64,000 nt of DNA from Acidisoma sp. PAMC 29798 (lineage in GTDB: Bacteria > Pseudomonadota > Alphaproteobacteria > Acetobacterales > Acetobacteraceae): the NCBI RefSeq assembly GCF_030252425.1, contig NZ_CP126994.1, positions 2,294,001 through 2,358,000 of the forward strand, given 5' to 3'. Shown here piece by piece: positions 5,461 to 62,339 of this stretch. The notes beneath the pieces were generated by a model that worked only from the letters and a program-made list of their open reading frames with translations, searched no databases and had not been told where the DNA came from. Every line of letters begins with the position of its first letter. Position 1 is the first letter of the stretch. Made by a program: the position numbers and the translations under genes.

Positions 5461-5475
5461 TCGGAAACTACTCAC
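5461..5475 (-). promoter_or_regulatory. FixJ-like box upstream of the MFS-PFOR operon
   Basis: On the minus strand this reads GTGAGTAGTTTCCGA. It ends 58 nt before the MFS start codon, and CTAA, a -10-like element, follows at offset 27-30 (5431-5434), leaving a short leader before the ATG at 5402. The same 14-15 bp recur elsewhere in this window. Confidence 0.65.
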
Positions 5476-5612
5476 ACGCGCTGGGATCCGGAGGCTTCGC
5501 GATATTGTTTCGTGGGTATTTTCCGAGCCTGCCCCGGTGGCCGCGAATGGCTCAGCATTTGGAATTCGCGGGCAGGACATGCCCTTCTCCTAAGGAATGA
5601 GGGTTTTGAATC

Positions 5613-7010
5613 ATGCCGGATGCCGGCCTTGACGAATTCCTCGAAAACCGCCCGTTCGACGAGATTGCGGTCGGCGACAGCGCGAGCCTTTCACATCGTG
5701 TGACACAACGCGACGTCGACCTGTTCGCCACGGCCACCGGCGACGTCAATCCAGCGCACGTAGACCCTGCCTATGCGGCCACCGACATGTTCCACCACAT
5801 CATCATCCACGGCCTATGGGGCGGCGGCCTGATCTCCGCCGTGCTTGGCACCAAGTTGCCCGGACCGGGAACGATTTACCTTGGTCAGACGTTGCGGTTC
5901 AGACATCCGGTCAGCATCGGTGACACCATCACGGCCACTCTCAAAGTCACGGAAAAGCAGGCCGACAAAGGCAACGTGACCTTCGACTGTGTCTGCACCA
6001 ATCAGGATGGTCAGGTCGTCATCACCGGAACCGCCGAGACGCATGCACCGCGCGAGAAGGTAAGGGTGGAGCGGATCACCCTGCCCTATGTACGCGTGGC
6101 GCGGCATGACGGGATGCGGGCGCTGCTGACCCGAGCCTCGGCGGAGGCGGCCGTCATGACGGCCGTGGTGCATCCCGTCGACGCGATGTCGCTGGTCGCG
6201 GCGGTGGAAGCCGCGAAGGCCGGGTTCATTGTGCCGATACTGATTGGCCCGACCGTGCGCATCAAGGCGGTGGCGGCGGCCGAAGCCGTGGACATTTCGG
6301 ACTACCGCCTCGTCGAGGCAGCGGATGCGGCAGCAGCAGCTGCAGCGGCGGTTGCAATGGCCCGTGCTGGAGAGGTGGCCATGCTGATGAAGGGCGATTT
6401 GCACACCGATGTGCTCATGCACCCAGTTATGTCGTCTCTGACCGGGCTGCGCACGGCCAAGCAGATCAGCCACGTCTTCGTCCTCGACGTGCCCGACTAC
6501 CCACGCCTGCTGCTGTTGACGGACATGGCGATCAACATCTCACCGATCCTGGCGGAAAAGGTGGGCATCGTTCAGAACGCCATCGACTGTGCGCATGTCA
6601 TCGGCATCGAGCGGCCGCGCGTGGCGATCCTGGCCCCGGTCGAGGTGGTGAACCCACGCCTGCAGGCGACCGTGGATGCTGCAGCCCTATGCAAGATGGC
6701 GGATCGCGGCCAGATCACCGGCGGGATCGTGGACGGTCCCCTGGGCTTCGACAACGCAATCAGCCCTGAGGCGGCGGCCGAGAAAGGTATCGTCTCCGAA
6801 GTCGCCGGCCGAGCCGAGATTCTGGTTGTTCCTGACCTCAACGCCGGCAATATGCTGGCGAAAGAGTTTACATTTCTCTCGGGCGCGGCCGCGGCGGGCG
6901 TCGTGCTAGGCGCGACGGTGCCCATCGTCCTGACCAGCCGCGCCGACAATGCCGCCACACGACTAGCCTCCTGCGCATTGGGATTGCTGGTGTCACGAGG
7001 CATCCGATGA
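5613..7010 (+). CDS. Bifunctional MaoC-like enoyl-CoA hydratase / phosphate acetyltransferase
   Basis: This 465-residue fusion has an N-terminal MaoC hot-dog domain, about residues 5-145 (DVNPAHVDPAYA and FHHIIIHGLWGGGLIS carry the hydratase Asp/His pair). It is followed by a phosphate acetyl/butyryltransferase domain (about 165-465, with MKGDLHTDVLMHPVM and GGIVDGPLGFDNAISPEAA). The second half interconverts acetyl-CoA and acetyl phosphate. In related genomes this fusion is typically next to acetate kinase and enoyl-ACP reductase; here acetate kinase sits 32 kb away and is broken. A gene that can turn phosphoketolase-derived acetyl phosphate into acetyl-CoA therefore remains intact in the window. 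TAAGGAATGAGG lies upstream of the ATG. The only box in the upstream gap points to the divergent MFS gene. About 210 nt without a convincing gene follow before the ATPase. Confidence 0.88.
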   Translation: MPDAGLDEFLENRPFDEIAVGDSASLSHRVTQRDVDLFATATGDVNPAHVDPAYAATDMFHHIIIHGLWGGGLISAVLGTKLPGPGTIYLGQTLRFRHPVSIGDTITATLKVTEKQADKGNVTFDCVCTNQDGQVVITGTAETHAPREKVRVERITLPYVRVARHDGMRALLTRASAEAAVMTAVVHPVDAMSLVAAVEAAKAGFIVPILIGPTVRIKAVAAAEAVDISDYRLVEAADAAAAAAAAVAMARAGEVAMLMKGDLHTDVLMHPVMSSLTGLRTAKQISHVFVLDVPDYPRLLLLTDMAINISPILAEKVGIVQNAIDCAHVIGIERPRVAILAPVEVVNPRLQATVDAAALCKMADRGQITGGIVDGPLGFDNAISPEAAAEKGIVSEVAGRAEILVVPDLNAGNMLAKEFTFLSGAAAAGVVLGATVPIVLTSRADNAATRLASCALGLLVSRGIR

Positions 7011-7219
7011 TGGCCTCGGGCCAGCCCGGCCGCCTGAAGGCCGCACTGAAGTCAGGCTTGTGCTGAAGCCTAGTTTTGCGAACGACACGGTCTTTGAGCT
7101 GGTGAAGCGCGGCGACCGGTCGGCACGCGTATTGCCGGACGTCGAAGCCACATGATCCATCGCCACCATGCGGGCACGATGAAGGCAGGGTCGGCGGATC
7201 AGGCAGGAAAGGACAGGTC

Positions 7220-9412: not shown

Positions 9413-9441
9413 CGCTGGGCATCCGACAAATATGAAAATTA

Positions 9442-9744: not shown

Positions 9745-11403
<1,659 letters not shown>

Positions 11404-11420: not shown

Positions 11421-14400
11421 TTACGCCGCCGCGGGCGTGTGAACGGCATCAAGCTCGGTTTGTCCAAGCTCAACCTCCAAGCGGTGTGTCGCGCCGTCAT
11501 CGATCAGCGTCACCCGCAGTGGCCGCTCCAGTATCACCCTTCCATCAATCCTAGCGGACGCAATCCCCAAGCCGGATTGATGCGGATTGCGAACATGGAT
11601 CTCGTAATGGCTGGAACGGTGACGAAGCACGATCTCGAAGCCGGGCCAGGCTTTCGGGATGCGAGGATCAAGGCACAGCACGTCTCCGAGCAGGCGTAGA
11701 CCTAGAATGCCCTCGGTGGCCGCGCGTTGCATCCAACCCGCCGACCCCGTGTACCAGGTCCAGCCGCCACGCCCGACATGCGGCGCGACGGCGTAAATAT
11801 CCGCCGCCACGACATAAGGTTCCACCTTGTAGCGATGCACATCCGCGCGCGTACGCGCGTGGTTGATGGGATTAAGAAGTGCGAAGAGAGATGCCGCCGC
11901 GTCCCCATCGCCCAGCGCCGCGAAAGCCATCACGGACCAGAGCGCCGCATGCGTATATTGGCCACCGTTTTCGCGTATACCGGGCGGATAGCCCTTGATA
12001 TAGCCAGGATCGAGCGCGGTTTTGTCAAAAGGTGGCTCAAACAGGAGCGCTAGGCCCTGCTCGGGCCGGATGAGGTGACGCGTCACGGCAGCCATCGCGA
12101 GAGCGGCCTTTTCCGGCGTGGATGCCCCTGAGAGCACGGCCCAAGACTGCGCAATGGAGTCGATCCGGCACTCATCATTGGTGGCCGATCCCAGGGGCGT
12201 TCCGTCATCGAAGAATCCCCGTCGATACCAGTCGCCATCCCAGGCCTCGCTGCCGAGTGCGACCTTCAGAGACGCCATATGCCCCTCCCAGCTCGTCACA
12301 TGGTCGGTGTCGCCGCGCGACTTCGCGAAGGGAACAAAAGCTTCCAGCGCGGCATAGAGGAACCATCCGAGCCAAACGCTCTCGCCCTGCCCCTTCTCGC
12401 CGACCCGGTTCATGCCGTCATTCCAATCGCCCGTGCCCATCAGTGGGAGCCCGTGCTGGCCGACCGCGAGGCTGTGATCCAAAGCGCGGGCGCAGTGCTC
12501 GAACAAGGTGGCATGTTGATCTGAGACGGTCGGCAAGAAGAAGTTGTCGTGCTCACCCGGCGCCAATGATTGGCCTTCCAGAAAGGCGAGCGACTCGTCA
12601 AGCACCCCGACGTCGGCCGTGGCGGACACATATTGGCTGACGGCATAGGCGAGCCACGCACGATCGTCGGAGATACGGGTTCGCACGCCTTGCCCCGAAT
12701 GCGGCAGCCACCAATGCTGTACATCTCCTTCGATAAACTGACGCGAGGCGGATTCCAGAAGATGCGCACGCGTCAGAGCCGGCCGCGATACCGTCAGAGC
12801 CATTCCATCCTGAAGTTGATCACGAAAGCCGTAAGCGCCACTCGCCTGATAGAAGGCCGATCGCGCCCAGACACGGCAAGCGAGCGCCTGATACAAAAGC
12901 CAACCATTGACCATGATGTCCATGGACCGGTCGGGGGTCTTGACCTCGATCCGACCGAGGGCGTCGTCCCAATAGTCCTTAACGGTCGCCAAGATTCCAT
13001 CAAGGTCGGCTGTTCGATACTGACTGATCAGTCGCCGTGCTTCATCAGCACTCGGCGCGTCACCCAGAAAGAAGACGATCTCTACAGTGCCGTTCGCCGG
13101 CACCACGACCTTCCGTCGCATGGCACAGCAAGGGTCGAGGCCGGCCCCTACTCGGTTGGACAAAGGCGTGCCGTCGCGGAGCGCCAGCGGGTCCGCGAGC
13201 GTTCCGTGGCGTCCAACGAATTCTCGCCGATCGCCCGTCCACTCCGTCTGGCCGCCATGCATATCCGCAAACGCCACCCGCGACGGGAAGGCCATATTCC
13301 AGGAATTGCGCGCAAGCATTGCGCCGGTCACAGAGTCGATTTCCGTGGCAACGAACGGCAAGGAGGCCGAGCGCTGTGGCGCAAGAACCCATTCCGCATA
13401 GGCGGTGATGCTCAGATGCCGAGCGCGGCCGGAACGATTCCGCAGCACAAGGCGAGATATTTTGATTGACGCATCCATCGGCACGTATTGGAGAAGCTCG
13501 CTGCCAATACCGCTCGCCGTATGCTCGAAACGGGAATAGCCGTGTCCGTGACGCGCCACATAAGTCGCGTGATCGTCGCGCTTGGGGAACGCAGTCGGAC
13601 ACCAGACGTCACCGCTTTCCTCGTCACGGAGGTAGAACGCCTCGCCGGCGCGATCCGTGACGGGGTCGTTCGACCACGGCGTAAGTTGATACTCGCGGCT
13701 ATTGACCGACCAGCTATAGCCGCTGCCCTCGGTCGCCACCTGGAAGCCGAAAGCAGGATTTGCAATGACGTTGATCCAGGGTGCCGGGGTGGATTGGCCT
13801 GGACCGATCACGGTCACGTATTCCTTTCCGCCGCGGGCGAAGCCCCCGAGCCCATTAAAGAACTCAAGATCGGGCGTGGTCGGTGATGCCTGCCTCTCCG
13901 GAGGCGTACGGTGCCCTTTCGCGGTCTTACGAGCGGATACGCCCTTTTCGGAAATGCGTTCGAGTTGATCGAACAGGCTGCCGTGTTGGGCGACGAGTAC
14001 GACGCGGGCCACGGAAACTAGAAGGGCGCTGGTCTCCGCCGGAATGAGATCGGCGCGGAGCACGAAGACGCGCCCAGACGGTGCGTCTCCACCGGTTCGC
14101 CAACGGGATTGACTGGTCCGAAGCTGCGCCTCGATCGCGATCTGCAGATCCTGAACGTAGGATGACTGGCGCTCATTCAGAATGACCAGGTCGACCGCAA
14201 GCCGCTTCATACGCCAGTATTCATGCGCCTGCAGCAGCTGTCGGGCGATGTCGAGGCTGCCAAGATCGCTGATCCGCAGGAGAATGATAGGGAGATCGCC
14301 GGAGATTCCTTGCCCCCAGAGACCTGATTGTGCCCCTGCCCCCCGCGAGATCGCGGTCGATGCCGGGCGCAAGTCCGGCGTCGCATAAATCGCGTAACCC

Positions 14401-17400
14401 GCGAGACGCTGGAAGAGACCGGCCTCGCCCGACGTGATACTGAAATGATGGAGCTGCACCTGCGCCTGGGTCCAGGTGAGCGTCGTTGCCCGCGTGAAGG
14501 CGGCGGTGTCACGATGCTTGTCCACGCTATCCAGCAGCTCTTGCCGTGTCGCCGCGACGACCGTCCAGAAATCGACATGCACGAGGCCCGACGGCGGAAT
14601 GATGACGCGGCGACGCAAGGCGAAGATTGGATCGAGAACGGTTCCGACCGTATTGGAAAGAGATTGCCCGTCGATCATCGCGATCGGCGTGCGCGCTCCA
14701 TGTCCGCGCCCGAGAAAGCGCGCGCGATCGGTCTCTATCTCGATCGGGCCGACCGCTTCGCCGTCGACCACGGCCAGATGCGCGGCCCAAACCTCGGCCT
14801 CTTCCGATGTGCGTCGGCGCCGGGTCGCCAGGATCGCCCCCACGTCTTCGAGAAACTCGGTTTCCACGAAAAGTTTTGCGAAAGCCGGATGAGCGACATC
14901 TGTCGCCTGTGGCGCCAACACGAGTTCCGCATAGGACGTGATCTCGATCTCACGCCCGTGGAGGCTCGTGTTGGAGATCGAGACCCGCCGCACCTCCGCA
15001 TCGTCTTCGGACGACACGAGCACTTGCACAGTCGTCGTCAGCCGCCCGTCGCGCCGCGTGAATTCAGCCCGATCCTCATTAAAGATGACCTGATAATCAT
15101 CGGGTTCCACACCGGTGGGCTGATAGGTCGCAGACCAAACCGCGCCGCTGCGCACATCCCTGATATAGATGTAGGAGCCGGAATCATCGCATGTCGCGTC
15201 TTCGCGCCACCGCGTGATCGCAAGGCCGCCCCAGCGACTATAGCCGGAGCCGGCGACCGTGAGCATGGTAGTATAGTGGCCATTCGAAAGAAGATGAGTC
15301 GCCGGCGTCGCCTGATGGGCCGAGTCAAAGCGGCGTCCACCTGGCGCCTCTACCTCTCCAGCTCTGGCCTGTATCTCGGCCTCGCGCGGGGGGGCGACCG
15401 AGATCTCCCGCGGCGGCCGCTCCTGCAACAGAAGTTCCGTCGCCTGGACAATCGGCTCGGCATGGAAGCGGGTCCTCATCACGCCGTCCAGTAGCGCATC
15501 GGCGATCGCGACGATCGTCATCCCCTGATGATGGGCCATGAAGGCGCGCACGATGGCGACGGTCTCGCCCTCCCGCACGCGGATCGGCGTGTAATCGAGT
15601 GCTTCATAGAAGCCGTAGCGACCGAGCGCGCCCGCCGCCGTCAAACGACCGAGGTTCCCGGATGCGGCTTTCGGATCGACCATCGCCGCCAAAGCAGTGG
15701 CATAGGGGGCAATGACGCGGCTCTGTCCGAGCCCACGCTTCAGGCCGAGGCCGGGAACTCCGAAATTGGAATACTGGTAGGTGAACTCGAGGTCCCGAGC
15801 ATTGTATGCGGATTCCGAAATACCCCAAGGCAAGTCGAGCTCGGCGGCATAGGCGATCTGCCGGGCGACGATCAGCCGGCTTGTCTGCTCAATCAGGCTC
15901 CCCATCGGTGCGCGCATCACCAAAGATGGCATCAGATATTCGAACATCGAACCCGACCATGAGATCAGCGCGGCCCGGTGACCGATCGGAGTAACCGTGC
16001 GACCGAGCCGGAACCAATGGCGCGCGGGAATATCCCCTTTAGCAATCGCGAAAAAGCTCGCCAGCCGCGCCTCGGACGCCAGAAGATCATAGCAATTCGA
16101 GTCGAGCGATGCGTCTGCAGCGACAAAGCCGATTGATAGAAGCTTTCGCTTCTCGTCGAACAGAAACGTGAAGTCCATTTCGAGTGCAAAGGTTCTGGCC
16201 TTCTCTTCGATCGTCGCAAGGCGTGCGTCCATCGATCCGTCCGCGAGCGCCAGAAGTTTGAGATCGCGGCGGTGACTTTCGATCGCAATCGCGCTTGCCT
16301 GGGCCCAGTATAGCAGGTCCGTCCCAGTGTCATCACCGCGCTCCTCCGCAAGCACGTGGGCAATGTCGATCATGGTGGCGCACTGGGCTGCCAAGTCTTT
16401 CAGCTGCCGCCCGACGTCGCTCCCATACGCGGAATTAGGCCGCACCGCTTTGATGAGACCAAGAAGCGCCTCATCGAGCTGACCCCAAGTGACCGTCTGG
16501 GTTTGCGGGCCGCCGCGCAAGCGCCCTACTTCCTCCTGCGTTAGAGAGAGCGCGTCCGCGATGCCGGCGAAGCGCGCGGCCGCCGAAACAGGCGTCGCCC
16601 GCCATTCACCGCAGGCGTTCGCGAGCGCGATGAGATGACCGGCGAGATTTCCGCTATCAACCGAAGAAATATATTGAGGATCAAGCGGACGTAGATCTGT
16701 CGTGTCGTACCAGTTGTAGAAATGTCCTCGAAAGCGCGCGAGGCCCGCCATGGTGGCCAGCGTCGCTTCAAGGCGAGTGGCAGCGTCCACAGTGCCCGCC
16801 CAACCCAGATCGCGGGCGGAGAGGATGGACAGAAGATAAAGACCAAGATTGGTAGGCGAGGTCCGGTGGGCAACTTCCGGCGTCGGTTGCTCCTGGAAGT
16901 TGTCCGGGGGCAGGCTGTTTTCGGCCGCAGTCACAAAGGTCTCGAAGAAGCGCCAGGTGCGCCGAGCCGTCAGCCGCAAGCTGCGGCGATCTGCCGGAAG
17001 ATCAGACAAAAGGTCATGGCGCTGGGGCGATAGGCTCACCCAAAGCGCCACGGCCGGGGAGAGAAGCCAGAGCAGCAGGAACGGTGCGGCGATCACCCAT
17101 GTCCGGTTTCCCGTGCCGCACACGACTCCTGCCGCTACGCCGGCGACGATCGCGACGCCCGCCATCCTTCGGTAGAAGCCGACGAGGTCGAGGCGCGGGG
17201 CAGTCGTCGATGCGGCGGCGGGTGTCCATTCCAACAAATGCCGGCGGCTGACGAGAAGACGCCACAGCGTGCGGATAATGGCGTCCCCCATCAGCCACGC
17301 CTGATGCGCCAGGAAGATGATGTTCAAAGCGGATAGCGACGTGGCTAGACGGAGATCCACGCCTAATCCCCGGACGTGACTTGAGAGCGTTATACCCGCT

Positions 17401-20159
17401 CGACGCGGCCGAATGGCCGCAACGACAGGAATAGCGGTCGGCACGACCAGTGTTGCAATGACAAGGCCCGTCCAGATCAGCGCCTGATGAAGAGGCAATG
17501 CCCAGCCCGCGAGCAAGGCGAGGACTGCGGCGGGAGCCGATAGACTGCGCCGCAGATTGTCCAGCATCTTGGAGCGACCGAGCGCCGGAACATGTCCAGT
17601 CCGCGACTTCAAATGCCCCGTAACCCGTCCGAAACCGAAGATCCATGGCAGGAGCTGCCAGTCTCCGCGGGTCCAGCGATGGTGCCGTCTCGCACCGACA
17701 TCGTAGCGGGTCGGAAAAGCCTCCACGACTTCGACGTCGGACGCAAGACCGGCACGGGCGAAGACGCCCTCGAAAAGATCGTGACTCAGCACCGTTGATT
17801 CCGGAATGCGTCCGGCCAAAGACGCCTCGAATGCATCCACATCATAGATGCCTTTGCCCGCATAAGATCCCTCTCCAAACAGGTCCTGGTAAACATCGGA
17901 CACGGCTGCGGCATAGGGGTCGATGCCGCTCAGGCTCGAGAAGATGCGTTGGAAACGCGAGCCTTCGCGGCTGACCGGCAGCGATGGTGTGACCCTCGGC
18001 TGCAGGATGGCATAGCCTTCCACAACGCGGCCGCCAGCCGCATCGAACCTTGGCTGATTGAGCGGATGGGCCATTTTCCCGATCAGTCGGCGCACCGTAT
18101 CGCGCGGCAATCGGGTATCAGTGTCCAAGGTCAGGACGTACCGAACGCCTGGGGGCGGCAGCGGCATCTGGCCATCGATCGCGATGAAGCTGGTATCCGT
18201 GGCGGCACGGAGGAGACGGTTCAACTCGTGGAGCTTGCCTCGCTTGCGTTCCCAACCGATCCATCGCGCCTCCCCCTCGTTCCAACTCCGCCTGCGGTGC
18301 AGGAGCAGAAAACGGGCACCGGCAGGTGCCGGTCCATATTGGCGATTGAGACCGGCAATCCCATCCGCCGCGGCCTCCAGGAGAGCGCCGTCACCGGCCT
18401 CATGCTCGTCTTTGGAATCCTCCCAATCCGACACCAGTGCGAAATGAAGATCGCCATGCCCGCTAGCGAGGTGGTGAATTTCGAGCCTCTCGACCTGTTG
18501 CTTGATGGCCGCGATTGTCGTTAGCAGTGTCGGAACCGCCACCAGGGTCCGCAACTGCGGAGGAACGCCGCCACGGAGTTCGAGGGCTGGCAGTCGTCCG
18601 GCGCCGAAGCCCATGCTGACGGCGCGATTGAGCAAGGCGACCGCAAGATCAATCGACGGAACCAAGCCCAGGAACCCAAGAAGAACCAGCCAGCCATGAC
18701 CGAGCCGTTCATCCGCCAAAACGACCAGGGGAACCGCCAGCACGCCTGCCGTAACGACGGCAACGCCGGCCGTATATCCGCCGATTCCCACCTTACGGTT
18801 GAGGCGCGCGACCCATTTACGGATCGGCAGGCGATAACCGACCTGGGACTCGAAGCCTAGTCGGCCTCCCGATACGAGATAGTATCCTGGATCCCGGTGA
18901 CGCGTTTCCGTTTCAGCGCCGGATAGATGCTGAGCATCGTCGGCCGTCGCCACCGCCATCCGCGCGATCTCGATTTCGCTGTGATCCGAGCCTCGGGCGA
19001 GCTGCTCGACGCAGGTCCGGTAGAGATCGCGAGTTTCGAAATCCATGTCCTTGAAGTTGTTGCCCGCCAACAGCGTGTCGTTGACAAGACTCATGCCCTC
19101 AAAACCCTCGTTCCAATCGGCATCCGCGATCAGGTGAAGGCTGGTGATCACGTTGCGCACCGACACGTTGGTGGCGCCTTGCTCCCGATGGACGTCGCGA
19201 ACCACGACATCCGCCGTCTTGCCTTGTGCCGCCAGACGCTCATCGAGCCATGCTAATGCTGGCGTTACCTTGGGATCTTGATCGCGTAGTCTATGCATCA
19301 ACTGGACTGTAAAGGCGTCGGGCAGCTTATCATGCATTCGGTGGGTCAGGACGACAGAGACGGGCTCAATCGGGCGACCGGCGGCCCCCAACAGACGGTC
19401 GGCGAGATCGTCGGCTTCCAGACGTTCCGCGCGATTTTGCACGATTAGCACCGAAAGCCGCCTTAGATTTTCGATCAGGACGATGCGCAGGGTCACTGGA
19501 AGTGCCCACAACTCAGCAATTTCCAGAAGCTGCACTTCCTGATACGCGCGTATATAGTGTTGCAGCACCGTTGCATCGAATGAACTGTCTGTATGTGCAA
19601 CGAAAGCCCACGCCAGCCCAAATACTCGTGGATATCCGACGAATGGCCCCGCGGCCAGCTTGGGCAGCTTTCGGTAGAAGCTCGGAGGCAGGTCCGTGCG
19701 AATTTCACGGAACTGCTGCTCGACGAGATGATAGTTGTCGATCAGCCACTCGGCCGCCGGCGTAATAGCGTGGCCCTGATTGAGAGATTGAACCATGCTT
19801 TGGTAGGCCGCGAAGAGAACGGGAACGTTTTCGGAAAGCCTGCGCCCGAGGGGATGGCCCCTCACCGCGCGCATCGTCACAGGCTGAGCCGCCGCCAAGC
19901 TTCTCCCGTGCCCTTCAAGGCGCTCGAGACTGAAAAGCTCCTCGCGGATAGGAGTAGGTGTATCCCAAAACGAGGGCGCACGGCGCCATACGAGGCTGCG
20001 AAACAAAAGGGCTGCCAATTGAACCTCGCTTTTTAGGCCGCTTTTTAGCCAACGCTGTATTGAAAGGTGACGCAAAAATGGATGCCGGCGTCGCCGCCGA
20101 GAGGTTTGACGATTGCGTGTCAGTTTTTGATCCGGGTTACGCGCGCCTTTGGTCGACAA
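11421..20159 (-). CDS. ndvB: Cyclic beta-1,2-glucan synthase
   Basis: At 2,912 residues this matches the NdvB/ChvB/Cgs family (about 2,830-2,870). A basic N-terminus is followed by membrane segments around 445-505, then a GT84 glycosyltransferase domain with TLDTDTRLP near 680 and HHRWTRGDWQLLPW near 828. More membrane segments follow at about 866-1043. A transglycosylation/glucoamylase-like domain (GH189 type) comes next, with FYNWYDTTDLRPLDPQYISS near 1155 and PWGISESAYNARDLEFTYQY near 1440. A GH94 phosphorylase-like domain with GTGDWNDGMNRVGEKG near 2578 ends the protein. The enzyme polymerises UDP-glucose, cyclises the chain and exports it to the periplasm, where such glucans serve osmoadaptation and host interaction. 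It is co-directional with pgm. A FixJ-like box ends 57 nt before the ATG. The frame is uninterrupted over 8.7 kb, a useful control for sequence quality. Confidence 0.96.
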   Translation of the reverse strand: MSTKGARNPDQKLTRNRQTSRRRRRHPFLRHLSIQRWLKSGLKSEVQLAALLFRSLVWRRAPSFWDTPTPIREELFSLERLEGHGRSLAAAQPVTMRAVRGHPLGRRLSENVPVLFAAYQSMVQSLNQGHAITPAAEWLIDNYHLVEQQFREIRTDLPPSFYRKLPKLAAGPFVGYPRVFGLAWAFVAHTDSSFDATVLQHYIRAYQEVQLLEIAELWALPVTLRIVLIENLRRLSVLIVQNRAERLEADDLADRLLGAAGRPIEPVSVVLTHRMHDKLPDAFTVQLMHRLRDQDPKVTPALAWLDERLAAQGKTADVVVRDVHREQGATNVSVRNVITSLHLIADADWNEGFEGMSLVNDTLLAGNNFKDMDFETRDLYRTCVEQLARGSDHSEIEIARMAVATADDAQHLSGAETETRHRDPGYYLVSGGRLGFESQVGYRLPIRKWVARLNRKVGIGGYTAGVAVVTAGVLAVPLVVLADERLGHGWLVLLGFLGLVPSIDLAVALLNRAVSMGFGAGRLPALELRGGVPPQLRTLVAVPTLLTTIAAIKQQVERLEIHHLASGHGDLHFALVSDWEDSKDEHEAGDGALLEAAADGIAGLNRQYGPAPAGARFLLLHRRRSWNEGEARWIGWERKRGKLHELNRLLRAATDTSFIAIDGQMPLPPPGVRYVLTLDTDTRLPRDTVRRLIGKMAHPLNQPRFDAAGGRVVEGYAILQPRVTPSLPVSREGSRFQRIFSSLSGIDPYAAAVSDVYQDLFGEGSYAGKGIYDVDAFEASLAGRIPESTVLSHDLFEGVFARAGLASDVEVVEAFPTRYDVGARRHHRWTRGDWQLLPWIFGFGRVTGHLKSRTGHVPALGRSKMLDNLRRSLSAPAAVLALLAGWALPLHQALIWTGLVIATLVVPTAIPVVAAIRPRRAGITLSSHVRGLGVDLRLATSLSALNIIFLAHQAWLMGDAIIRTLWRLLVSRRHLLEWTPAAASTTAPRLDLVGFYRRMAGVAIVAGVAAGVVCGTGNRTWVIAAPFLLLWLLSPAVALWVSLSPQRHDLLSDLPADRRSLRLTARRTWRFFETFVTAAENSLPPDNFQEQPTPEVAHRTSPTNLGLYLLSILSARDLGWAGTVDAATRLEATLATMAGLARFRGHFYNWYDTTDLRPLDPQYISSVDSGNLAGHLIALANACGEWRATPVSAAARFAGIADALSLTQEEVGRLRGGPQTQTVTWGQLDEALLGLIKAVRPNSAYGSDVGRQLKDLAAQCATMIDIAHVLAEERGDDTGTDLLYWAQASAIAIESHRRDLKLLALADGSMDARLATIEEKARTFALEMDFTFLFDEKRKLLSIGFVAADASLDSNCYDLLASEARLASFFAIAKGDIPARHWFRLGRTVTPIGHRAALISWSGSMFEYLMPSLVMRAPMGSLIEQTSRLIVARQIAYAAELDLPWGISESAYNARDLEFTYQYSNFGVPGLGLKRGLGQSRVIAPYATALAAMVDPKAASGNLGRLTAAGALGRYGFYEALDYTPIRVREGETVAIVRAFMAHHQGMTIVAIADALLDGVMRTRFHAEPIVQATELLLQERPPREISVAPPREAEIQARAGEVEAPGGRRFDSAHQATPATHLLSNGHYTTMLTVAGSGYSRWGGLAITRWREDATCDDSGSYIYIRDVRSGAVWSATYQPTGVEPDDYQVIFNEDRAEFTRRDGRLTTTVQVLVSSEDDAEVRRVSISNTSLHGREIEITSYAELVLAPQATDVAHPAFAKLFVETEFLEDVGAILATRRRRTSEEAEVWAAHLAVVDGEAVGPIEIETDRARFLGRGHGARTPIAMIDGQSLSNTVGTVLDPIFALRRRVIIPPSGLVHVDFWTVVAATRQELLDSVDKHRDTAAFTRATTLTWTQAQVQLHHFSITSGEAGLFQRLAGYAIYATPDLRPASTAISRGAGAQSGLWGQGISGDLPIILLRISDLGSLDIARQLLQAHEYWRMKRLAVDLVILNERQSSYVQDLQIAIEAQLRTSQSRWRTGGDAPSGRVFVLRADLIPAETSALLVSVARVVLVAQHGSLFDQLERISEKGVSARKTAKGHRTPPERQASPTTPDLEFFNGLGGFARGGKEYVTVIGPGQSTPAPWINVIANPAFGFQVATEGSGYSWSVNSREYQLTPWSNDPVTDRAGEAFYLRDEESGDVWCPTAFPKRDDHATYVARHGHGYSRFEHTASGIGSELLQYVPMDASIKISRLVLRNRSGRARHLSITAYAEWVLAPQRSASLPFVATEIDSVTGAMLARNSWNMAFPSRVAFADMHGGQTEWTGDRREFVGRHGTLADPLALRDGTPLSNRVGAGLDPCCAMRRKVVVPANGTVEIVFFLGDAPSADEARRLISQYRTADLDGILATVKDYWDDALGRIEVKTPDRSMDIMVNGWLLYQALACRVWARSAFYQASGAYGFRDQLQDGMALTVSRPALTRAHLLESASRQFIEGDVQHWWLPHSGQGVRTRISDDRAWLAYAVSQYVSATADVGVLDESLAFLEGQSLAPGEHDNFFLPTVSDQHATLFEHCARALDHSLAVGQHGLPLMGTGDWNDGMNRVGEKGQGESVWLGWFLYAALEAFVPFAKSRGDTDHVTSWEGHMASLKVALGSEAWDGDWYRRGFFDDGTPLGSATNDECRIDSIAQSWAVLSGASTPEKAALAMAAVTRHLIRPEQGLALLFEPPFDKTALDPGYIKGYPPGIRENGGQYTHAALWSVMAFAALGDGDAAASLFALLNPINHARTRADVHRYKVEPYVVAADIYAVAPHVGRGGWTWYTGSAGWMQRAATEGILGLRLLGDVLCLDPRIPKAWPGFEIVLRHRSSHYEIHVRNPHQSGLGIASARIDGRVILERPLRVTLIDDGATHRLEVELGQTELDAVHTPAAA

Positions 20160-20216
20160 CGCCCCTCCCCTACAACGCCAACGACCTTACTCGAAGAGCG
20201 CATCGGCTCGTGAGGT

Positions 20217-20231
20217 TCGGAAACTACTCAC
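20217..20231 (-). promoter_or_regulatory. FixJ-like box upstream of ndvB
   Basis: The minus strand reads GTGAGTAGTTTCCGA and ends 57 nt before the ndvB ATG. GTAA follows at offset 27-30. With the plus-strand box at 20246-20260 it forms an inverted pair with 12-bp arms (TTCGGAAACTAC / GTAGTTTCCGAA) between the divergent ndvB and slipin genes. Confidence 0.65.
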
Positions 20232-20245: not shown

Positions 20246-20260
20246 CTAGGTAGTTTCCGA
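20246..20260 (+). promoter_or_regulatory. FixJ-like box upstream of the slipin gene
   Basis: The plus strand reads CTAGGTAGTTTCCGA and ends 102 nt before the slipin ATG at 20363. A hairpin (ATCTTCC, 10-nt loop, GGAAGAT) follows at 20261-20284. The -10-like TA seen after most other boxes is not at the usual offset here. Confidence 0.6.
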
Positions 20261-20362
20261 ATCTTCCTGCTTCATGTGGAAGATGCGACGTTCGAAGAAC
20301 CTCCATGAGTTCTCGGACCTTCCATCTCTTGCGATGGAATCCTTTTGAAAAGGTTGACCGTG

Positions 20363-21715: not shown

Positions 21716-21730
21716 ATAGGTACTTTCCGA
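21716..21730 (+). promoter_or_regulatory. FixJ-like box upstream of the RMF-like gene
   Basis: The plus strand reads ATAGGTACTTTCCGA and ends 102 nt before the ATG at 21833. CTAC, a -10-like element, follows at offset 27-30. It is a variant of the consensus (C instead of G/T at position 8). Confidence 0.5.
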
Positions 21731-21832
21731 GTCTATGCCACGGCCTTAGTCGCTTGCTACTTCGACCGCTCAAGGCCTGGGTCATCGCGATAACGAGACC
21801 AGAGCCGGTAAGAACGATTGTAGGAAGGGACG

Positions 21833-24517: not shown

Positions 24518-24637
24518 AGCCGCTCCTTGCTAAAAGATGTGCTTGACAACATTGGATCAGCTATGTGGGCGCAGAGAACAAGCCACACTCAGGCCGATGA
24601 CAACCTGTCTAGAGCGAGATGCTCGGCCGCGGTAGCT

Positions 24638-24652
24638 TCGGAATCTACCTAG
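24638..24652 (-). promoter_or_regulatory. FixJ-like box upstream of the 63-residue ORF
   Basis: The minus strand reads CTAGGTAGATTCCGA, with CTAG at offset 26-29. It ends 120 nt before the ATG at 24517. Confidence 0.55.
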
Positions 24653-27606: not shown

Positions 27607-27707
27607 TTGATTGCTCCCTAAAGATGACTGACCGAACTACGAGCGGCGCGATGTCATCGCCCTTGTTGAGAGGGACTCCTAGTCCGACCGCGACCGACCT
27701 GCCAGGC

Positions 27708-27722
27708 TCGGAAACTACTCAC
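27708..27722 (-). promoter_or_regulatory. FixJ-like box upstream of the exported PRC-barrel gene
   Basis: The minus strand reads GTGAGTAGTTTCCGA and extends to GTGAGTAGTTTCCGAGCCTG, a 20-mer shared exactly with the box at 62325. CTAG follows at offset 26-29. It ends 101 nt before the start codon. Confidence 0.65.
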
Positions 27723-28035: not shown

Positions 28036-28050
28036 CTGAGTAGTTTCCGA
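28036..28050 (+). promoter_or_regulatory. FixJ-like box, plus strand, distant from any gene
   Basis: Reads CTGAGTAGTTTCCGA with GTAC at offset 26-29. The next plus-strand gene (the CheB-like ORF) starts 451 nt downstream, so the box either drives a long leader, a small RNA, or a lost gene. Confidence 0.5.
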
Positions 28051-28501
28051 TCCTACAGAGGTCCGTTGGCATCGTGTACCGCAAGTGAGCATCAAAAGAC
28101 GTCGGGGAACGACGTGAGTTTGAGGAAAAGATAATAACGAGGCCGGGACGCCCCTTTGCTTCTCATGCCGCCGTATGCTGCAAAGGTCGCATAGAAAGGC
28201 GCCCAGAGATCCATGACTGCGGCCTTTTGAAAGGGTGGTCGGTTGTGACAGCATCATACTACTGTCGGATTCTCCTTAGGCAGCCAAACCGAGGGCGTGA
28301 AGAGGACTCTTTGCCTCATCCGCGTCTTGCCTGCATGCACGGATATTAGAAGCGGCTCCATCAAATGAGACGGTGCGCCCCCAAGAGGTTGGACAAAGAG
28401 GACACCTAGACCCTCGCACGGTTAAGCACGCCAGATCGCCACAAGATTCCATCCACTGTCAGTTTCTAATCTATGGTTCGACATAACTCTGCGGAGGCTC
28501 A

Positions 28502-36932: not shown

Positions 36933-37742
36933 GGCTGCCCTTTCTTTCTTTTGCTATGCGCCAGGTTGCAGTGTCCAACACCGGGAGAGGATCTTCGGCA
37001 CCCTCCGTCGCGATGATGTAATTGCCGCAGCTGGCCGCGTGACAGCAGGCGGCGAGCGTCGCCTGCTTATTCAAAGCCTGGTTGAGCACGAACCCCCTGG
37101 CGGGCCTGATGTCGCAACGACTGTATTCAAGCTCGCGACTCCGTGGATGATCCCGCTTTCGCTTAAACTGAAACTCGCCGACCGCCCGCTGGGCTATTGG
37201 TTGTCCTCCGGCGACATGGGCACGAGGGCTGGTGCAGCGTTCGGTTAACCAGACCTTAATGGTCACACGTCGCCAACGGGAGATTCGGAAACTACTCACG
37301 CGGCCGCTCCCCGGCGATGGGATGTATGCAAAGGCTTTGGGCAGGCCTAAGCCACATCGTGCGGCAGCTCTGCCGGCTCGGTGTACACGCGAGCGTCATA
37401 GGCGTCTCTTTCCCCCGCGAAGGGCATCGTCCTAAAGGGCTGCAAAGTTGCCGACGAGGGTCATTTTTGTCTCGCTAGAGTGTTTTGCGAACATTCTGGC
37501 TCTACCTGCAACGCTAGAAAGTCACATCCTGTCGCGTGAGCGTATCGTCTTCTCCAGAACACAATCTTCTGGATCGGAAACTCAATTAATCAGGCTTCAA
37601 ACTGGGAAAGACCTTCCAGCGCATCGTCTCGGAATTGTATGCCAACGCGAAATTTAAACTGAGGCACGCCGCTTTGACTAGTCGACTGACCCGCCCGCAC
37701 AGGCGTGAATGCGAAAGAGCTGCTCCTGGCGAGCGCGATGCT
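36933..37742. other. Intergenic region upstream of the proton ATPase
   Basis: Holds the FixJ-like box at 37285-37299. A plus-strand stretch up to 37248 (VFKLATPWMIPLSLKLKLAD then RPLGYWLSSGDMGTRAGA) reads like real protein but has no start of its own and overlaps the ATPase gene; it may be a gene remnant that I cannot name. From 37300 to 37742 I see nothing. Confidence 0.45.
37285..37299 (-). promoter_or_regulatory. FixJ-like box upstream of the proton P-ATPase
   Basis: The minus strand reads GTGAGTAGTTTCCGA with TTAA at offset 26-29. The distance to the ATPase start (352 nt) is the largest for a box with a downstream gene, implying a long leader or an intervening lost gene. Confidence 0.6.
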
Positions 37743-45398: not shown

Positions 45399-45522
45399 AG
45401 GTTTGATCCTTTAAGTCATTGGCGCTTCATAGGACTTTCCCAAACCCATAGAAGGCAGTTCCCGCTTGATCGGCCGGAGGCACGTTCAAAGAGTAGCGCC
45501 GTGTGATTCAAAGCGAACAGTA

Positions 45523-45537
45523 TCGGAAAATACCTAG
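45523..45537 (-). promoter_or_regulatory. FixJ-like box upstream of the phosphoketolase operon
   Basis: The minus strand reads CTAGGTATTTTCCGA with CTAC at offset 27-30. It ends 124 nt before the xfp ATG. Confidence 0.6.
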
Positions 45538-46342: not shown

Positions 46343-46433
46343 CACGAAGATCCTCTCTGACAAAACAGCGATACGGAATAGCCCTACGCCGGGGTGCATA
46401 GCGTCAACCACTGCCGATGCAGTGAAGCTCGGA

Positions 46434-46892: not shown

Positions 46893-47006
46893 GATATCCC
46901 TAAGAGGGTTCCTTTGATTGAGGCGGCGGAAAGGCGTCTTTGAACTGGACGAGTCTGCATCTGGGCACACTCGATCTATAGCGCCCCCAAAAGGGCCAGG
47001 GCAGGA

Positions 47007-47021
47007 TCGGAATCTACTTAG
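47007..47021 (-). promoter_or_regulatory. FixJ-like box, minus strand
   Basis: The minus strand reads CTAAGTAGATTCCGA with CTAT at offset 26-29. The nearest downstream candidate is the 78-residue ORF starting at 46892. Confidence 0.5.
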
Positions 47022-48064: not shown

Positions 48065-48177
48065 GGCGAACGGTCCTTTCCAAAATAACGGCATGATGAG
48101 GCCGCCTGCTTGCAAGCGGATAACGCGGTTCCGTTTGAAACACAGACCGTAAAGGGTCTTCGCCTAGCTGGGCAGGC

Positions 48178-48192
48178 TCGGAAACTACTCAA
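48178..48192 (-). promoter_or_regulatory. FixJ-like box between PRC paralogue 2 and the giant regulator gene
   Basis: The minus strand reads TTGAGTAGTTTCCGA followed by GCCTG, and TTAC at offset 26-29. It points toward the PRC gene (113 nt to its start). It also lies 158 nt upstream of the regulator start, in the opposite orientation, so it could mediate feedback on the regulator gene. Confidence 0.6.
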
Positions 48193-48350: not shown

Positions 48351-51300
48351 ATGCCAGAGAGCCGACCGCGCGGCACCAGAGACCCTGCCGACCTGACGGT
48401 TGTGGGCATTGGCGCCTCTGCGGGCGGTCTAGAGGCCTGCCGTGAATTCATAAAGGCGCTGCTGCCCGCCGAGACTGGCTTAGCCTTCATCCTGGTGCAG
48501 CATCTCGATCCATCCCATGAAAGCATGATGGTGGAACTGCTCGGCAACCATACCGCGTTGACCGTGCGACAGGCGACCGAGGGTATGAAGATCGAGGTCG
48601 AGCACCTTTATGTCATTCCCCCAGGCATGTACCTTTCCGTCACCGAAGGCACGCTGCACCTCTCACGCCCGACCGCCCATCATGGCGCCCGCTTACCCTT
48701 CGATTTCCTTCTGAAGTCTCTCGCCACAGCCTACGGCGGGCACGCCTGCTGCATCGTCCTCTCTGGGTCAGGCGCCGATGGCAGCGTTGGACTCGCCGCG
48801 ATAAAGAAGCACGGCGGACTGGTCCTTGCTCAAGACCCCGAGGAGGCCGGTTACGATGGCATGCCGCGGAGCGCCATCATGACCGGGCTGGTCGATCAGG
48901 TGCTCCGGGTAAGGGAGATTCCGGCCGCCCTCGCTCATCGGCTTCAGCAGAAGATACTACCAGCGCCGACCCGTGCGTCGCCCCGGTCAGGCGCAGGGCT
49001 GACCGAGATCATAGACCTTCTGCGCCTCAAGACTGCACATGACTTTACCTACTACAAGCAAGGAACCCTGCAGCGTCGGATCCGTCGACGCATGAGCCTT
49101 GCCGGGATCGAAGCGGACGAGATGCAGAAATATCACGCGATGTTGGACAGCGATACGCCTGAAGTCGAGCTTCTTGCCAAGGATCTTTTAATCAACGTCA
49201 CAAAGTTCTTCCGAGACCCCAAAGTCTTCGACCTTCTCGCCAAAACCATCATTCCCGAATTGGTACGCAAGCATCCTCTCGATCGTGCTCTTCGCGTATG
49301 GGTTGCTGGCTGTAGCACGGGTGAGGAACCTTATTCTCTCGCCATCCTCTTCCGTGAGGAGATCGTGGCAGCAAATCTTTCTATCAAGCTACAAGTCTTC
49401 GCTTCCGATGTGGATTCCGAAGCTATCGCGAGTGCTCGGGAAGGCTTTTACCCGATTGCAATCGAATCTGACGTGTCCCCACAACGTCTAAGCCGGTTCT
49501 TCACCAAGGAAGACCATGGCTACCGCATACTGCCCGAGCTCCGTGCCATGGTCGTCTTCACCGTGCAGGACGTCATGGCCGATCCGCCCTTCTCACGGCT
49601 CGATCTGGTTTCCTGTCGCAATCTTCTGATCTATCTGGACTTGGAAGCACAAGTGCGGGTCCTGTCCATGTTCCATTTCGCGCTGCGCCCGGGCGGGATC
49701 CTTCTCCTCGGCTCGTCCGAAACAGCTGGAAATGCCGGTGAGCGATTCGAGGTCATCTCTAAGCCGGCGCGCCTTTACCGACGCATCGGTCACACGCGGC
49801 CCGGGGAAATCGGCTTCGCCATCAGCAGTGCCGATGGAGCCCGGCTGTCGATCCGGCCGCGGCAGAGCTCTGGTTTGTCGAGGCAGGCGGCCCTGGCCGA
49901 ACTCTGCCGCAAGCAGGTGATGGAGAGCTACGCGCCGGCGGCCCTTTTGATCAATGGCAAGAACGAGTGCATCTATTCGCTTGGGCCGACCGACCGCTAC
50001 CTCAGTGTGCCCTCCGGCCATCCGACCCATGATCTCCTTGCGATGGCACGGCCAAGCATGCGGACCAAGCTCCGCTCCGCGATTCATCGCGCCAACGAAC
50101 AACGCACGCGCATTCTGGTGCCCGGCGGACGTCTGGACCGCGGCGCCAACGGGCCTTCGTTCAACATCGCCATAGAGCCGGTCGAGAACGACGGGGAGTC
50201 GCTTCTGCTCATTTGCTTCCTCGACGACCAGACCTACGAGAAGAAACGTGGACGTCCTCTGGCACCGCACGACGCGCCGCGGGTGGCTGAACTCGAACAG
50301 GAGCTTGAGGCAACGCGAGCTGAATTGCGCGGCGCCATCCATAGCCTCGAAATCTCTAATGAAGAGCAAAATGCAATTAATGAAGAGGCACTTTCCGTAA
50401 ACGAAGAATATCAGTCGACCAATGAGGAACTCCTCACCTCGAAGGAGGAGCTCCAATCTTTGAACGAAGAACTGACGGCCCTCAATGGGCAGTTGCAAGA
50501 AACACTCGACAGTCAGCGCACAACATCCAACGATCTAAAGAACATCCTCTACAGTACGGATGTCGCCACACTCTTTCTTGATTCGCAGCTCAACATCCGT
50601 TTCTTCACCCCAGCTACCCGCTCACTGTTCAGCGTCATCACGAGTGACATCGGTCGCCCCCTGGCCGATCTCAACGCTTTGTCGTCTGACACAGATCTGC
50701 TCGCAGACGCTCGATCGACTCTAGATACCCTTGCCCCTATTCAACGCGAAATTGAGGCAAAATCCGGCGCTTGGTATCTCCGCCGGGTCTCTCCGTATCG
50801 GACCCATGATAACGGCGTCGGGGGTGTGGTCATAACCTTCATGGACATCACCGCTCGCAAGACTGCGGCCAAGGCTCTGGAGGATGCCACGCGCCGCGCA
50901 GAGACAGCCAATATCGCCAAATCCCGCTTCCTAGCGGCTGCAAGCCACGATCTTCGGCAGCCTTTGCAGACGCTGTCACTGATTCAAGGGCTGCTTGCCC
51001 GAAAAGTGCTTAGCGACAATGCGCACAAGCTGGTCGCCATGCTCAGCCCGACATTGACCGCAATGTCCGGCATGCTGAACACACTCTTGGACATCAACCA
51101 AATCGACGCGGGCACGGTCAACGCCAAACCGAGCACCTTCCCAATCGCGATGATTTTCGACCGGATGCGGGATGAATTTGCTTATCACGTCGAGGCGCAG
51201 GGGCTTGAGCTGATCGTTATTCCGTGTAGCCTAGCAATTCATACGGATCCTCATCTTCTTGAGCAGATGATCCGGAACCTTCTGGCCAATGCGCTGAAAT

Positions 51301-52739
51301 ACACGCGATACGGAAAGATCCTGCTGGGCGTGCGCCGGTACCGGAAGACGCTGAGCATCGAGGTCTGGGATACCGGGATCGGAATACCTGACCGCGAACT
51401 CGAATCGATCTTCAATGAGTATCATCAAGTCGACAATCCGGCCCGCGACAGAAGCCGAGGGCTAGGGCTCGGTCTGCCAATCGTCCAAAGACTTGCCGAA
51501 CTATTAGGTCATCATATCACCGTTCGGTCCAATCTTGGGCGTGGTTCGGTATTTGCCATCGAAGTCGCGCGTGAGACGGCAATCATCGATTTATTGAATA
51601 GCCCCAGGCGGGACGAGGGAGTTACCGACGAAGCAGCGATGAACCGGCGCCGAACCGGGACCATTCTCGTCATCGAAGACGATGGAGAGCTCAGAGAACT
51701 TCTTGATCTGCTGCTTTCTGCTGAGGGCCATCATGTTGTGACTGCGCCCGACGGCGTCGCGGCGCTTGATCTTGTAGCGCGCGGCGCCGTCCGCCCTGCC
51801 CTGATCCTCTCTGATTACAATCTTCCTAACGGCATGGACGGCCTTCAGGCTTGCGACCGCATTCGTGCTAGACTTCATCGACATGTTCCCGTCATCATCC
51901 TGACGGGAGACATTTCAACAAAAACCCTGCAAGATGTCGCGGCTCTGGACTGCGTCCAACTTAGCAAGCCTACTAAGCCAGAGGAACTTGCAGAGACTAT
52001 TCAGCGCCTCCTGCCCCCGCCCCAAGCCGAGCTGCGCTGGCAGAAGTCGGAGCCCCCGGGCGTAAAGGATGCCACGACTCCCGCAACCATATACGTGGTC
52101 GATGACGATCGCCATATACAAGAGATGATGCAGCGTGTTCTGGAAAATGAAGGCTTTGTCGTCGAGACCTATGAGAGCTGCGAAGACTTCGTGGGCGCCT
52201 ATCAACCCAGCGACCACGCCGCTTGTCTTGTGATAGACGCCTACCTCCCCGGCATGCAGGGACTCGAACTGCTTCAAAAGCTAAGCGCCGACGACAGCCA
52301 TCTGCCTGCCATCATGATCACCGGCACGAGCGACGTGCATATGGTTGTCGAGGCCATGAAGGCCGGAGCATCCGACTTCATTGAGAAGCCTGTCAGCGCT
52401 CATGAACTTCTCGCAGGTATCCACCGGGCGCTCGAACAAGCGCGAGATTCGAGCAAGCAATCCGCGTGGCGACAGATCGCCACCGATCAGGTTGCCGGGC
52501 TAACTGGACGGCAACGACAGATCATGGATCTCGTTCTCGCCGGGCATCCGAGCAAGAACATCGCAGCCGACCTTGGCATAAGCCAGAGGACCGTTGAAAA
52601 CCATCGGGCCTCCATCATGAAGCGCACCAGTTCGCACTCTCTGCCCGAGCTCGCCCGCACCGCACTCGCCGCCGCTTCGGGTAGCGCGGAACTGCTTGTT
52701 CACCACGGTTCCGCGTCGATCCCGGTCGTGGCAGAGTAG
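48351..52739 (+). CDS. CheB-CheR-PAS-histidine kinase-REC-REC-LuxR fusion regulator
   Basis: This protein of about 1,462 residues has these domains in order. A CheB methylesterase spans 14-215 (Ser in [11 protein letters not shown], His in VQHLDPSH, Asp in [10 protein letters not shown]). A CheR methyltransferase spans 216-490 (SAM motif [12 protein letters not shown] near 317). A PAS-like region is followed by a long coiled coil (about 645-730, [20 protein letters not shown]). A PAS domain spans 731-836. A histidine kinase has His866 in [12 protein letters not shown], then [20 protein letters not shown] and [11 protein letters not shown]. Receiver 1 has Asp1155 ([13 protein letters not shown]). 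Receiver 2 is FixJ-like with Asp1296 ([32 protein letters not shown]). A LuxR/GerE helix-turn-helix ends it ([20 protein letters not shown] then [20 protein letters not shown]). It is a phosphorelay in one chain with DNA-binding output. The ATG at 48351 directly precedes the CheB domain. Confidence 0.9.
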
Positions 52740-61239: not shown

Positions 61240-61352
61240 CTGCTTCTCCCTATGCAGCCGGTTATTCGGCGGGTTACAGCGTCGTCGCAGCCGATCAGGA
61301 CAAGTGCATCGGGGCGTGAGCTCGCACCGTCGCTTCCTGGCCAGCCTACCCC

Positions 61353-62162
61353 TCACCAGCCATAGCCAGGCCAGTCGTCATACTTGTGCAGCCGCTGCTC
61401 ATATTCGGTTTTGATAGCATCAGCTGGGTTCCAAGGCGGGCAGGACTTGACCTGCTCCGTTCCGATGTCGACCCGGACATAGCGGTCGTGCCAGTCGACT
61501 CTCTTCACCGCATAGGGCGAGATCAAAACATGCTGCCCAAACCACCAGTTCGACGTATCGACGACGAGATAACGAATGCCCGAGCTCCCATTGTCGATCA
61601 GGACGTCCTGAACATGCCCGACGTCGCCGTCGGTTGCATGCACGTGGTAGCCCGTGACCTCTGCGACGCTGCGTAGATGAGGGTCACCGTCATCGGAGCC
61701 GGCTCCGCCCCGCTCGGCCTCCCGCACGGCCGACGCGCCTAAATACGCGGGTGCTTCTGCGGGCGCAGCAAACGCGCCCATCCCCCCGCCGTAGATGGAC
61801 CCGCCATACATCCTGCTGCCGCCGCCGAACATTGCGCCGCCCCAGAACGGATCCCCGCCATAGTAGCCGTAGAGATTGTTCTGCATCTGCCGTGAGATCG
61901 GGCGGTCCTGCAGAATATCGGGACTATCCTCCACCTGGGCCTTCGTCAGCGCGACGTTGAGGTATCTCGCTCCAATTTCAGCGGAGATGACGACCGACGG
62001 GTTGATCAGGACCTTGCGCTCGGTCAGCCAGCGTCCGGTGTCGAGGGCTATCCAACGCACCTTCCAGGTGCTGTCATCGAAAAGAAAGTCGCTGACCGTT
62101 CCAAGGCTGCCATCCTTGGCCTGGATCTCGTTTCCCTTGAATGACGATACAGCGTCCAGCAT
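61353..62162 (-). CDS. Double PRC-barrel domain protein (paralogue 3)
   Basis: This protein of about 269 residues has two PRC-barrels. The first is [20 protein letters not shown] then [20 protein letters not shown]; the second is [20 protein letters not shown] then [20 protein letters not shown]. The linker is Gly/Met-rich ([16 protein letters not shown]) and the tail ends [13 protein letters not shown] 62162 is chosen because the barrel begins directly after it and AAGGGACC lies upstream. It heads the gene series PRC, PPK2, transporter, glk, gnd, tal, pgi, all on one strand; a FixJ-like box ends 162 nt before it and could drive the whole 8.4 kb unit. Molecular function is unknown. Confidence 0.82.
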
Positions 62163-62324
62163 GGCATGGTCCCTTCGCTTGCAATCATCATCCACGGCGT
62201 CGGTCGGGGCCCGGTGCTCATTCGTCTGATGGCCGGCCTATTAGGAAGCTGGTTCTTTTGCCGCGCCGGGATCGGAGCGTATCACTGCATACAATGTGGC
62301 CTAGTTGGACCGCGAAACACAGGC

Positions 62325-62339
62325 TCGGAAACTACTCAC
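62325..62339 (-). promoter_or_regulatory. FixJ-like box upstream of PRC paralogue 3 and the glucose operon
   Basis: The minus strand reads GTGAGTAGTTTCCGA followed by GCCTG, identical over 20 nt to the box at 27708. A CTAG lies at offset 21-24, somewhat closer than after the other boxes. It ends 162 nt before the ATG. Confidence 0.6.

Follow-up and report, generated by a model that had tools for sequence, protein, structure and literature searches.

A window of 64,000 nucleotides from Acidisoma sp. PAMC 29798 (contig NZ_CP126994.1, positions 2,294,001 to 2,358,000, the whole stretch of DNA analysed here) contains 13 copies of a 19-bp box, whose gene-strand sequence is TRRGTAGTTTCCGANNCTR. We think it very probable that these boxes serve as core promoter elements and are recognised by the receiver-GerE tail found in regulators related to FixJ as a sister group, through which a clustered survival regulon would be switched on. 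The likely reader of the box in the window is the FixJ-like receiver-LuxR tail that ends a giant protein encoded at 48351..52739 (positions are those of the window unless said to be of the genome).

The box and its distribution in the genome

That a box recurs here had been noticed in a preliminary description of the sequence, and this is confirmed. Five identical 15-mers (5461, 20217, 27708, 37285 and 62325) were found as described, and 12 of its 13 sites were recovered by a weight matrix of 19 positions built from 69 exact-core sites, including the window's own; the remaining one, at 46434, scored 2.1 and was rejected, and a real site missing from that list was found at 5513 (score 29.6). 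The matrix gives exactly 13 sites in the window, scoring from 26.9 to 31.6, the next best score being 10.7 and the highest in the reversed window 7.2. With up to two mismatches to the 15-mer there are eight matches, against 0.06 expected from 100 dinucleotide shuffles (roughly a hundredfold excess). As the preliminary description held, the boxes avoid genes: none of the 13 overlaps a script-called gene, and all of them face a same-strand gene (taking longest-ORF starts, where ORF is open reading frame) at a distance of 8 to 590 bp, 11 lying within 350 bp. The likeness to FixJ sites, which had been drawn from a 15-bp consensus, also stands, but the box is 19 bp long and has a right half of its own, CCGANNCTR.

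The core TCGGAANNTACYYA occurs exactly 31 times in the 4.99-Mb genome, against once for the same pattern read backwards. Nineteen copies fall in 104 kb (genome positions 2285487-2389500), 11 in 46 kb (3956846-4002562), and one stands alone at 1713853. The window sits within the first of these islands, so what had been taken for a local regulon is indeed clustered, but spans two islands and extends beyond the window. Island limits were set from the sites themselves, and clustering statistics are therefore descriptive only. A genome scan, a count of intergenic enrichment and a comparison with relatives had been suggested as checks; all three were carried out, and the box passed each of them.

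Promoter architecture

Genes were called by script over 420 kb, comprising the two islands, the lone site, three relatives and two named contigs of metagenome-assembled genomes. None of the 69 exact sites in this DNA lies wholly within a called gene, and 60 aim at a same-strand downstream start (42 of the 69 also have a gene start on their other side). Two window sites count as non-oriented in this tally because their target genes, an ORF resembling ribosome modulation factor (RMF) behind box 21717 and a CheB-only gene behind box 28037, were skipped by the gene caller. When the set was widened to 122 sites scoring at least 21, based on a second gene call and with some loci overlapping, a single one (in locus L080) fell within a called gene.

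Two further features emerge from the 69 sites. A C at +16 (67 sites) and a T at +17 (all 69) were not part of the search pattern, and the hexamer TANNNT is found at +40 in 22 sites and at +41 in 15, whereas at 104 other offsets it is found 0.29 times on average and never more than 3 times. Where this -10 is seen, it lies 21-22 bp from the box, and no other positions are conserved, hence no -35 is evident. Such a fixed spacing of box and -10, with nothing else conserved, is what marks an activator site that replaces the -35, and the phased -10 lets the direction of transcription be read independently of gene calls. The box would be centred near -43, like an activator site substituting for a -35 element. 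Class II activator sites are by convention centred near -42, and the features of class II LuxR/NarL activator promoters (such a centre, a fixed -10 and no -35) are found in the sequence here, reckoned from a predicted start only.

These features go with the regulator. Among giant-bearing genomes, 31 core matches in 23 loci included CT in 26 cases and TANNNT in 20. The control comprised 21 core matches in 20 regions, chosen from those in the 51 core-bearing genomes without a full-length giant: CT was present in six and TANNNT in six, and the six TANNNT matches were all in three genomes (G083, G068 and G279) where the tail, or just its GerE part, belongs to proteins of other kinds. Among the other 15 control matches, CT was found once and TANNNT never.

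The candidate regulator and its relation to FixJ

From its Pfam and NCBIfam matches, the candidate regulator (48351..52739, forward strand; 1,462 residues) is predicted to have the order CheB-CheR-PAS-histidine kinase-receiver-receiver-LuxR (GerE), the Pfam search having used the start at 48246. The kinase histidine, both receiver aspartates and the CheB and CheR motifs are visible by eye, and the giant carries its own PAS_10 domain and kinase. Its tail (52089..52736, same strand), made up of the second receiver and the GerE DNA-binding domain, is the part that tracks the box; the earlier proposal of this protein as likely reader is supported by the co-occurrence of the receiver-GerE tail with the core, described below. 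The genome has 13 GerE matches, 12 of them above cut-off; exactly two fall within islands, one per island, and each of these forms the end of a giant, the second island encoding its own CheB-CheR-PAS-kinase-receiver-receiver-GerE protein. The kinase and first receiver of the giant match the NahK/ErcS hybrid kinases at 364 bits, below the 400-bit cut-off; we know of no CheB, CheR or GerE domain in that family.

The receiver-GerE order is common to the tail and FixJ, and FixJ is also the nearest solved relative of the tail (5xso, 137.5 bits). The box shares the GTAGTTTCC core with the FixJ consensus GTAGTTTCCC obtained by systematic evolution of ligands by exponential enrichment, as given in the consulted portion of PMC4999443. 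Compared with the FixJ target (TAAGTAATTTCCCTTA / GTAGTTTCCC), however, only the left half is shared, the right half being CCGANNCTR here and CCC(TTA) for FixJ. The FixJ recognition helix reads ISPRTIEVYRA, whereas in the tail its P and I/V are replaced by Q and N; the giant scores 231 bits, below the 255 of the curated FixJ model (NCBIfam NF006900/PRK09390); and FixJ stands alone, whereas this tail is fused to a giant kinase. The tail would also drive tens of promoters directly, whereas a comparative study in Rhizobiales reports candidate FixJ sites ahead of four genes (PMC4999443). The tail family is a sister of FixJ, and not FixJ. A separate FixJ-like protein is encoded near genome position 1515778.

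This separation is also seen in the helix and in a tree. All 31 box-clade tails, but none of 17 FixJ-like tails, have Q or R as residue 3 of the recognition helix, and residue 8 is N in 27 of the former and one of the latter. In a 48-row tree, which contained no named FixJ, 30 box-group tails and that of G052 stand apart from the 17 FixJ-like tails with support of 100/98, the bootstrap being not fully settled. In two cases, G614 (L150 5736) and Roseicitreum (L159 7951), the box has CCGG for CCGA and both regulators share an altered helix reading; helix and box may possibly co-vary, though there are two such cases only.

Co-occurrence of tail and box

Full-length giants were used in the first comparison, in which 16 of 17 giant-bearing genomes, and 51 of the other 368, had the core (385 genomes of the class). 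This was replaced by a test of the tail because tail-bearing exceptions turned up. A receiver-GerE tail was matched at 1e-40 or better in 34 of the 385 genomes: the core TCGGAAWNTACYYA is present in all 18 with a match of at least 170 bits and in none of the 16 with 140-169 bits, the remaining 351 having it in 49 cases, which is the background rate. The chance of so perfect a split of 34 is 1/C(34,18), about 5e-10, for a post hoc threshold and with relatedness ignored. In the lower group, tree and helix both place G052 with the box clade, and this genome has a near-box (23.1) with a -10.

For a sample of 393 genomes across the phylum, the 170-bit threshold was recorded beforehand. Thirty genomes had a tail match, and two new ones exceeded the threshold: in G733 a core (score 29.7, with a -10) lies 82 bp away from where the tail match ends, and G614 has no exact core but only a near-box, scoring 20.3, in which CCGG replaces CCGA and which has a -10. 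At 140-169 bits, the core was found in two of 26 genomes (G624 and G630), neither of them scoring as a box. The direction of the class result holds in this small test.

It might be supposed that the boxes are ordinary FixJ sites, read by a FixJ of the conventional type as part of a FixLJ-FixK hypoxia cascade, as the shared core and the structural match to 5xso would suggest. We consider this unlikely, as the exact core is missing from all 16 class genomes whose best tail match is at 140-169 bits, and the two phylum-level cores in that range do not score as boxes; moreover, a Phenylobacterium zucineum plasmid with an annotated fixJ and comparable metabolic genes has no site scoring 15 or more, the giant falls under the curated FixJ score, and the 205 kb of islands contain no intergenic exact TTGA-N6-TCAA of the FixK/FNR type (there is one inside a called gene). 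On the last count, control of the islands by FixK/FNR was itself rejected.

The sensor half appears to be interchangeable on a constant tail. Besides the giants, the tail occurs on a kinase-receiver protein (G014), on a PAS-kinase-receiver protein (G083) and on a receiver-only protein with an unassigned N-terminus (G068), and G279 has a GerE protein of 204 residues (L113 6822-7436), without a receiver match, which has the same recognition helix, lies beside two phased boxes and is possibly a one-component version. No giant was found in these four genomes, all of which have phased boxes. Two further forms, PAS-kinase-two-receiver (G343) and receiver-only (G145), give no independent support because their genomes also have giants. 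Conversely, among 20 genomes with CheB-CheR-PAS matches that stop short of the tail, only three have the core; two of these (G068 and G083) carry the tail elsewhere, and in the third (G344) the core lacks both CT and -10. These observations bear on the idea that the promoters are real but that their reader is a different regulator, one that accompanies the giants. The islands do encode further regulators, and association across genomes is correlational, but the box follows the GerE tail in the four giant-free genomes, including the one with the small GerE protein, and is scarce where sensor halves occur without it, so this too seems improbable.

Tails of this kind are also found on plasmids. 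Of the 235 plasmid records that a search matched at 1e-30, 229 had less than 60% identity, and 14 loci were fetched from among the 25 best matches: those of Phyllobacterium, Polymorphobacter, Methylocystis, Caballeronia (Betaproteobacteria), Methylocapsa, Lichenicola, Acidiphilium, Asticcacaulis, Neorhizobium, Rhizobium, Sphingomonas, Roseicitreum, Shinella and Novosphingobium. Each of the 14 has one or more sites with a score of 19 or above, though in Roseicitreum there is just a near-box of 19.0. The first seven loci together have 37 sites scoring at least 15, of which 18 have TANNNT; none is fully within a coding sequence and two overlap the end of an upstream one, as judged from an incomplete table of coding sequences. 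The target kinds repeat those of the Acidisoma genome: oleate hydratase and adhP-phosphoketolase-acetate kinase (Phyllobacterium), BON proteins (Polymorphobacter and Caballeronia), a PRC-barrel protein (Lichenicola), and a universal stress protein with slipin (Caballeronia). Rhizobium and Neorhizobium each have one box only, which stands before a gene for a response regulator next to polysaccharide genes.

A mobile or structural repeat is strongly disfavoured and hardly credible as the origin of the boxes, in spite of a transposase gene in the window and insertion sequences in several of the plasmid loci, since flanks differ among sites, degeneracy is position-specific, and neither a phased -10 nor orientation towards genes is expected of a repeat.

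A proposed mechanism and its significance

Given the observed box, its phasing and clustering, and its association with the tail, we infer a signal, a phosphate path, binding and activation as follows. The giant, present as one copy per island, would be a phosphorelay in one polypeptide: on stimulation of the sensor half, phosphate would pass from the kinase histidine via the first receiver to the second, whereupon the tail would dimerise on the box, which at about -52 to -34 would take the place of a -35, and recruit RNA polymerase to the -10 hexamer lying 21-22 bp downstream. Activation would turn on phosphoketolase and the fermentation of glucose, pyruvate:ferredoxin oxidoreductase (PFOR), a proton pump and polyphosphate kinase, as well as glucan synthesis, slipin, PRC-barrel and BON proteins, and GrpE.

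Several points weigh against this proposal. The full TANNNT is present in just 37 of the 69 exact sites, leaving 32 without it, and in five of the 13 window sites (at +40 or +41, another five have TA only and three have neither). The islands are patchy among kin: four genomes of the same genus have the core TCGGAAACTACYYA seven times, once, and, in two of them, not at all. The 170-bit threshold was fixed after the class data had been seen, and G052 falls below it yet is in the box clade, while G614, one of the two new genomes above it, lacks an exact core. With two giants and two islands, either giant might read either island. Finally, no oxygen-sensing feature was identified, haem binding not having been examined.

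Should the proposal be right, it assigns a DNA box to a clade of regulators often annotated just as 'chemotaxis protein CheB' or 'CheR family methyltransferase', and ties them to survival genes instead of chemotaxis. The promoter grammar (box, 21-22 bp, TANNNT) would predict regulon members in many genomes, and the pairing of helix residues (Q and N where FixJ has P and I/V) with the right half of the box would make DNA specificity in the FixJ family directly testable. More tentatively, there may be a transferable module in Alpha- and some Betaproteobacteria, in which a FixJ-sister tail on varied sensors, most often with CheB and CheR in one chain, and the 19-bp box move on plasmids and islands and switch on sets of energy-survival genes, CheB and CheR serving as a built-in adaptation system for transcription. 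Searches of the literature for the box letters, the gene set and CheB-CheR-LuxR fusions, mostly at title and abstract level and with few subscription papers, found neither box nor regulon.

Genes behind the boxes and the likely signal

Many of the targets, or their operons, concern energy supply. The box at 5456..5474 (minus strand; score 30.8, TANNNT at +41) precedes an operon for an MFS transporter, a ferredoxin-linked oxidoreductase and PFOR, the PFOR match having been obtained with a 372-residue fragment as query and being below the family cut-off; that at 5513..5531 (plus; 29.6, no -10 match) precedes a MaoC/phosphate acetyltransferase gene (5613-7010); and that at 45518..45536 (minus; 26.9, -10 at +41) an operon for phosphoketolase, class I aldolase and triosephosphate isomerase. 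The box at 62320..62338 (minus; 31.6, no -10 match) faces a gene for a PRC-barrel protein (61353-62195), after which come, on the same strand, PPK2, a sugar porter, glucokinase, gnd, a transaldolase-like ORF and pgi.

Other targets relate to the envelope and to stress. Three more PRC-barrel proteins follow boxes at 27703..27721 (minus; 31.6, TA at +40; gene 26728-27606), 47002..47020 (minus; 29.7, TA at +40; gene 45557-46411, 590 bp away) and 48173..48191 (minus; 31.6, -10 at +40; gene 47270-48115, divergent from the regulator gene). A proton-efflux P-type ATPase (33798-36932; TIGR01647 above cut-off) follows the box at 37280..37298 (minus; 27.6, -10 at +40), and an IS4/5-type transposase lies at 38155-38964, inside the island. 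A divergent pair of boxes, at 20212..20230 (minus; 28.1, -10 at +41) and 20247..20265 (plus; 28.8, no -10 match), serves respectively the genes for an ndvB-like glucan synthase (11421-20159) and phosphoglucomutase (9745-11403), and that for slipin (20345-21193; Band_7). GrpE is likewise among the targets, as are triple-BON proteins in both islands, a mechanosensitive channel, oleate hydratase, a permease resembling aspartate/alanine exchangers and an amino-acid permease; other genomes add genes for ferritin, Usp, YflT-like, DUF3309, MauG and OmpA-like proteins and a desaturase. The stand-alone CheB-domain gene at 28502-29113, 446 bp from the box at 28037..28055 (plus; 30.6, TA at +40), would suit feedback.

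Overall, the genes downstream would suit fermentative energy supply and protection of the envelope and against stress, and low oxygen or energy limitation is the likeliest signal, because the FixK2 protein of Bradyrhizobium controls some of the same kinds of gene and the low-oxygen-activated (lxa) locus of Burkholderia cenocepacia is similar. In the consulted portion of the FixK2 study, the regulon in Bradyrhizobium diazoefficiens has genes for oleate hydratase and phosphoketolase-acetate kinase, along with one for a universal stress protein (PMC9104804); FixK2, however, uses boxes of the TTGA-N6-TCAA type, which are absent in exact form between genes of the two islands. The lxa locus, as far as the part of its description consulted goes, comprises 50 stress and energy genes, including those for BON and universal stress proteins, is linked to anoxic persistence, and was suggested by its authors to have an Anr/FixK-type regulator as a possibly central one (PMC6127331). 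A further likeness, by partial description, is to DosR (DevR) of Mycobacterium tuberculosis, a NarL-subfamily regulator of a dormancy set with universal stress proteins. DosR belongs to a different phylum and has a different sensor and site.

In one genome a box stands ahead of a sigma factor gene with a PhyR_sigma2 match (L075, G335:C12:158393), so that the regulator may act upstream of general stress control in that lineage. The promoter consensus of the general-stress sigma factor EcfG is GGAAC-N16/17-CGTT; applied strictly, it gave no match between genes in the two islands, and EcfG promoters were rejected as well.

Two boxes of the window precede short ORFs. That at 21717..21735 (plus; 27.6, TA at +41) faces the RMF-like ORF of 102 residues (21833-22141), which has no Pfam or NCBIfam match and in which two tandem units resembling ribosome modulation factor (NPW...W..GW) can be seen by eye. 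That at 24633..24651 (minus; 28.4, TA at +40) is 115 bp from an ORF of 63 residues starting at 24517. This last product is hydrophilic, and it and a similar short ORF behind a box of the second island, near genome position 3990100, have the endings RRPLFRN / RRSLFRR and possibly represent a small unnamed protein family.

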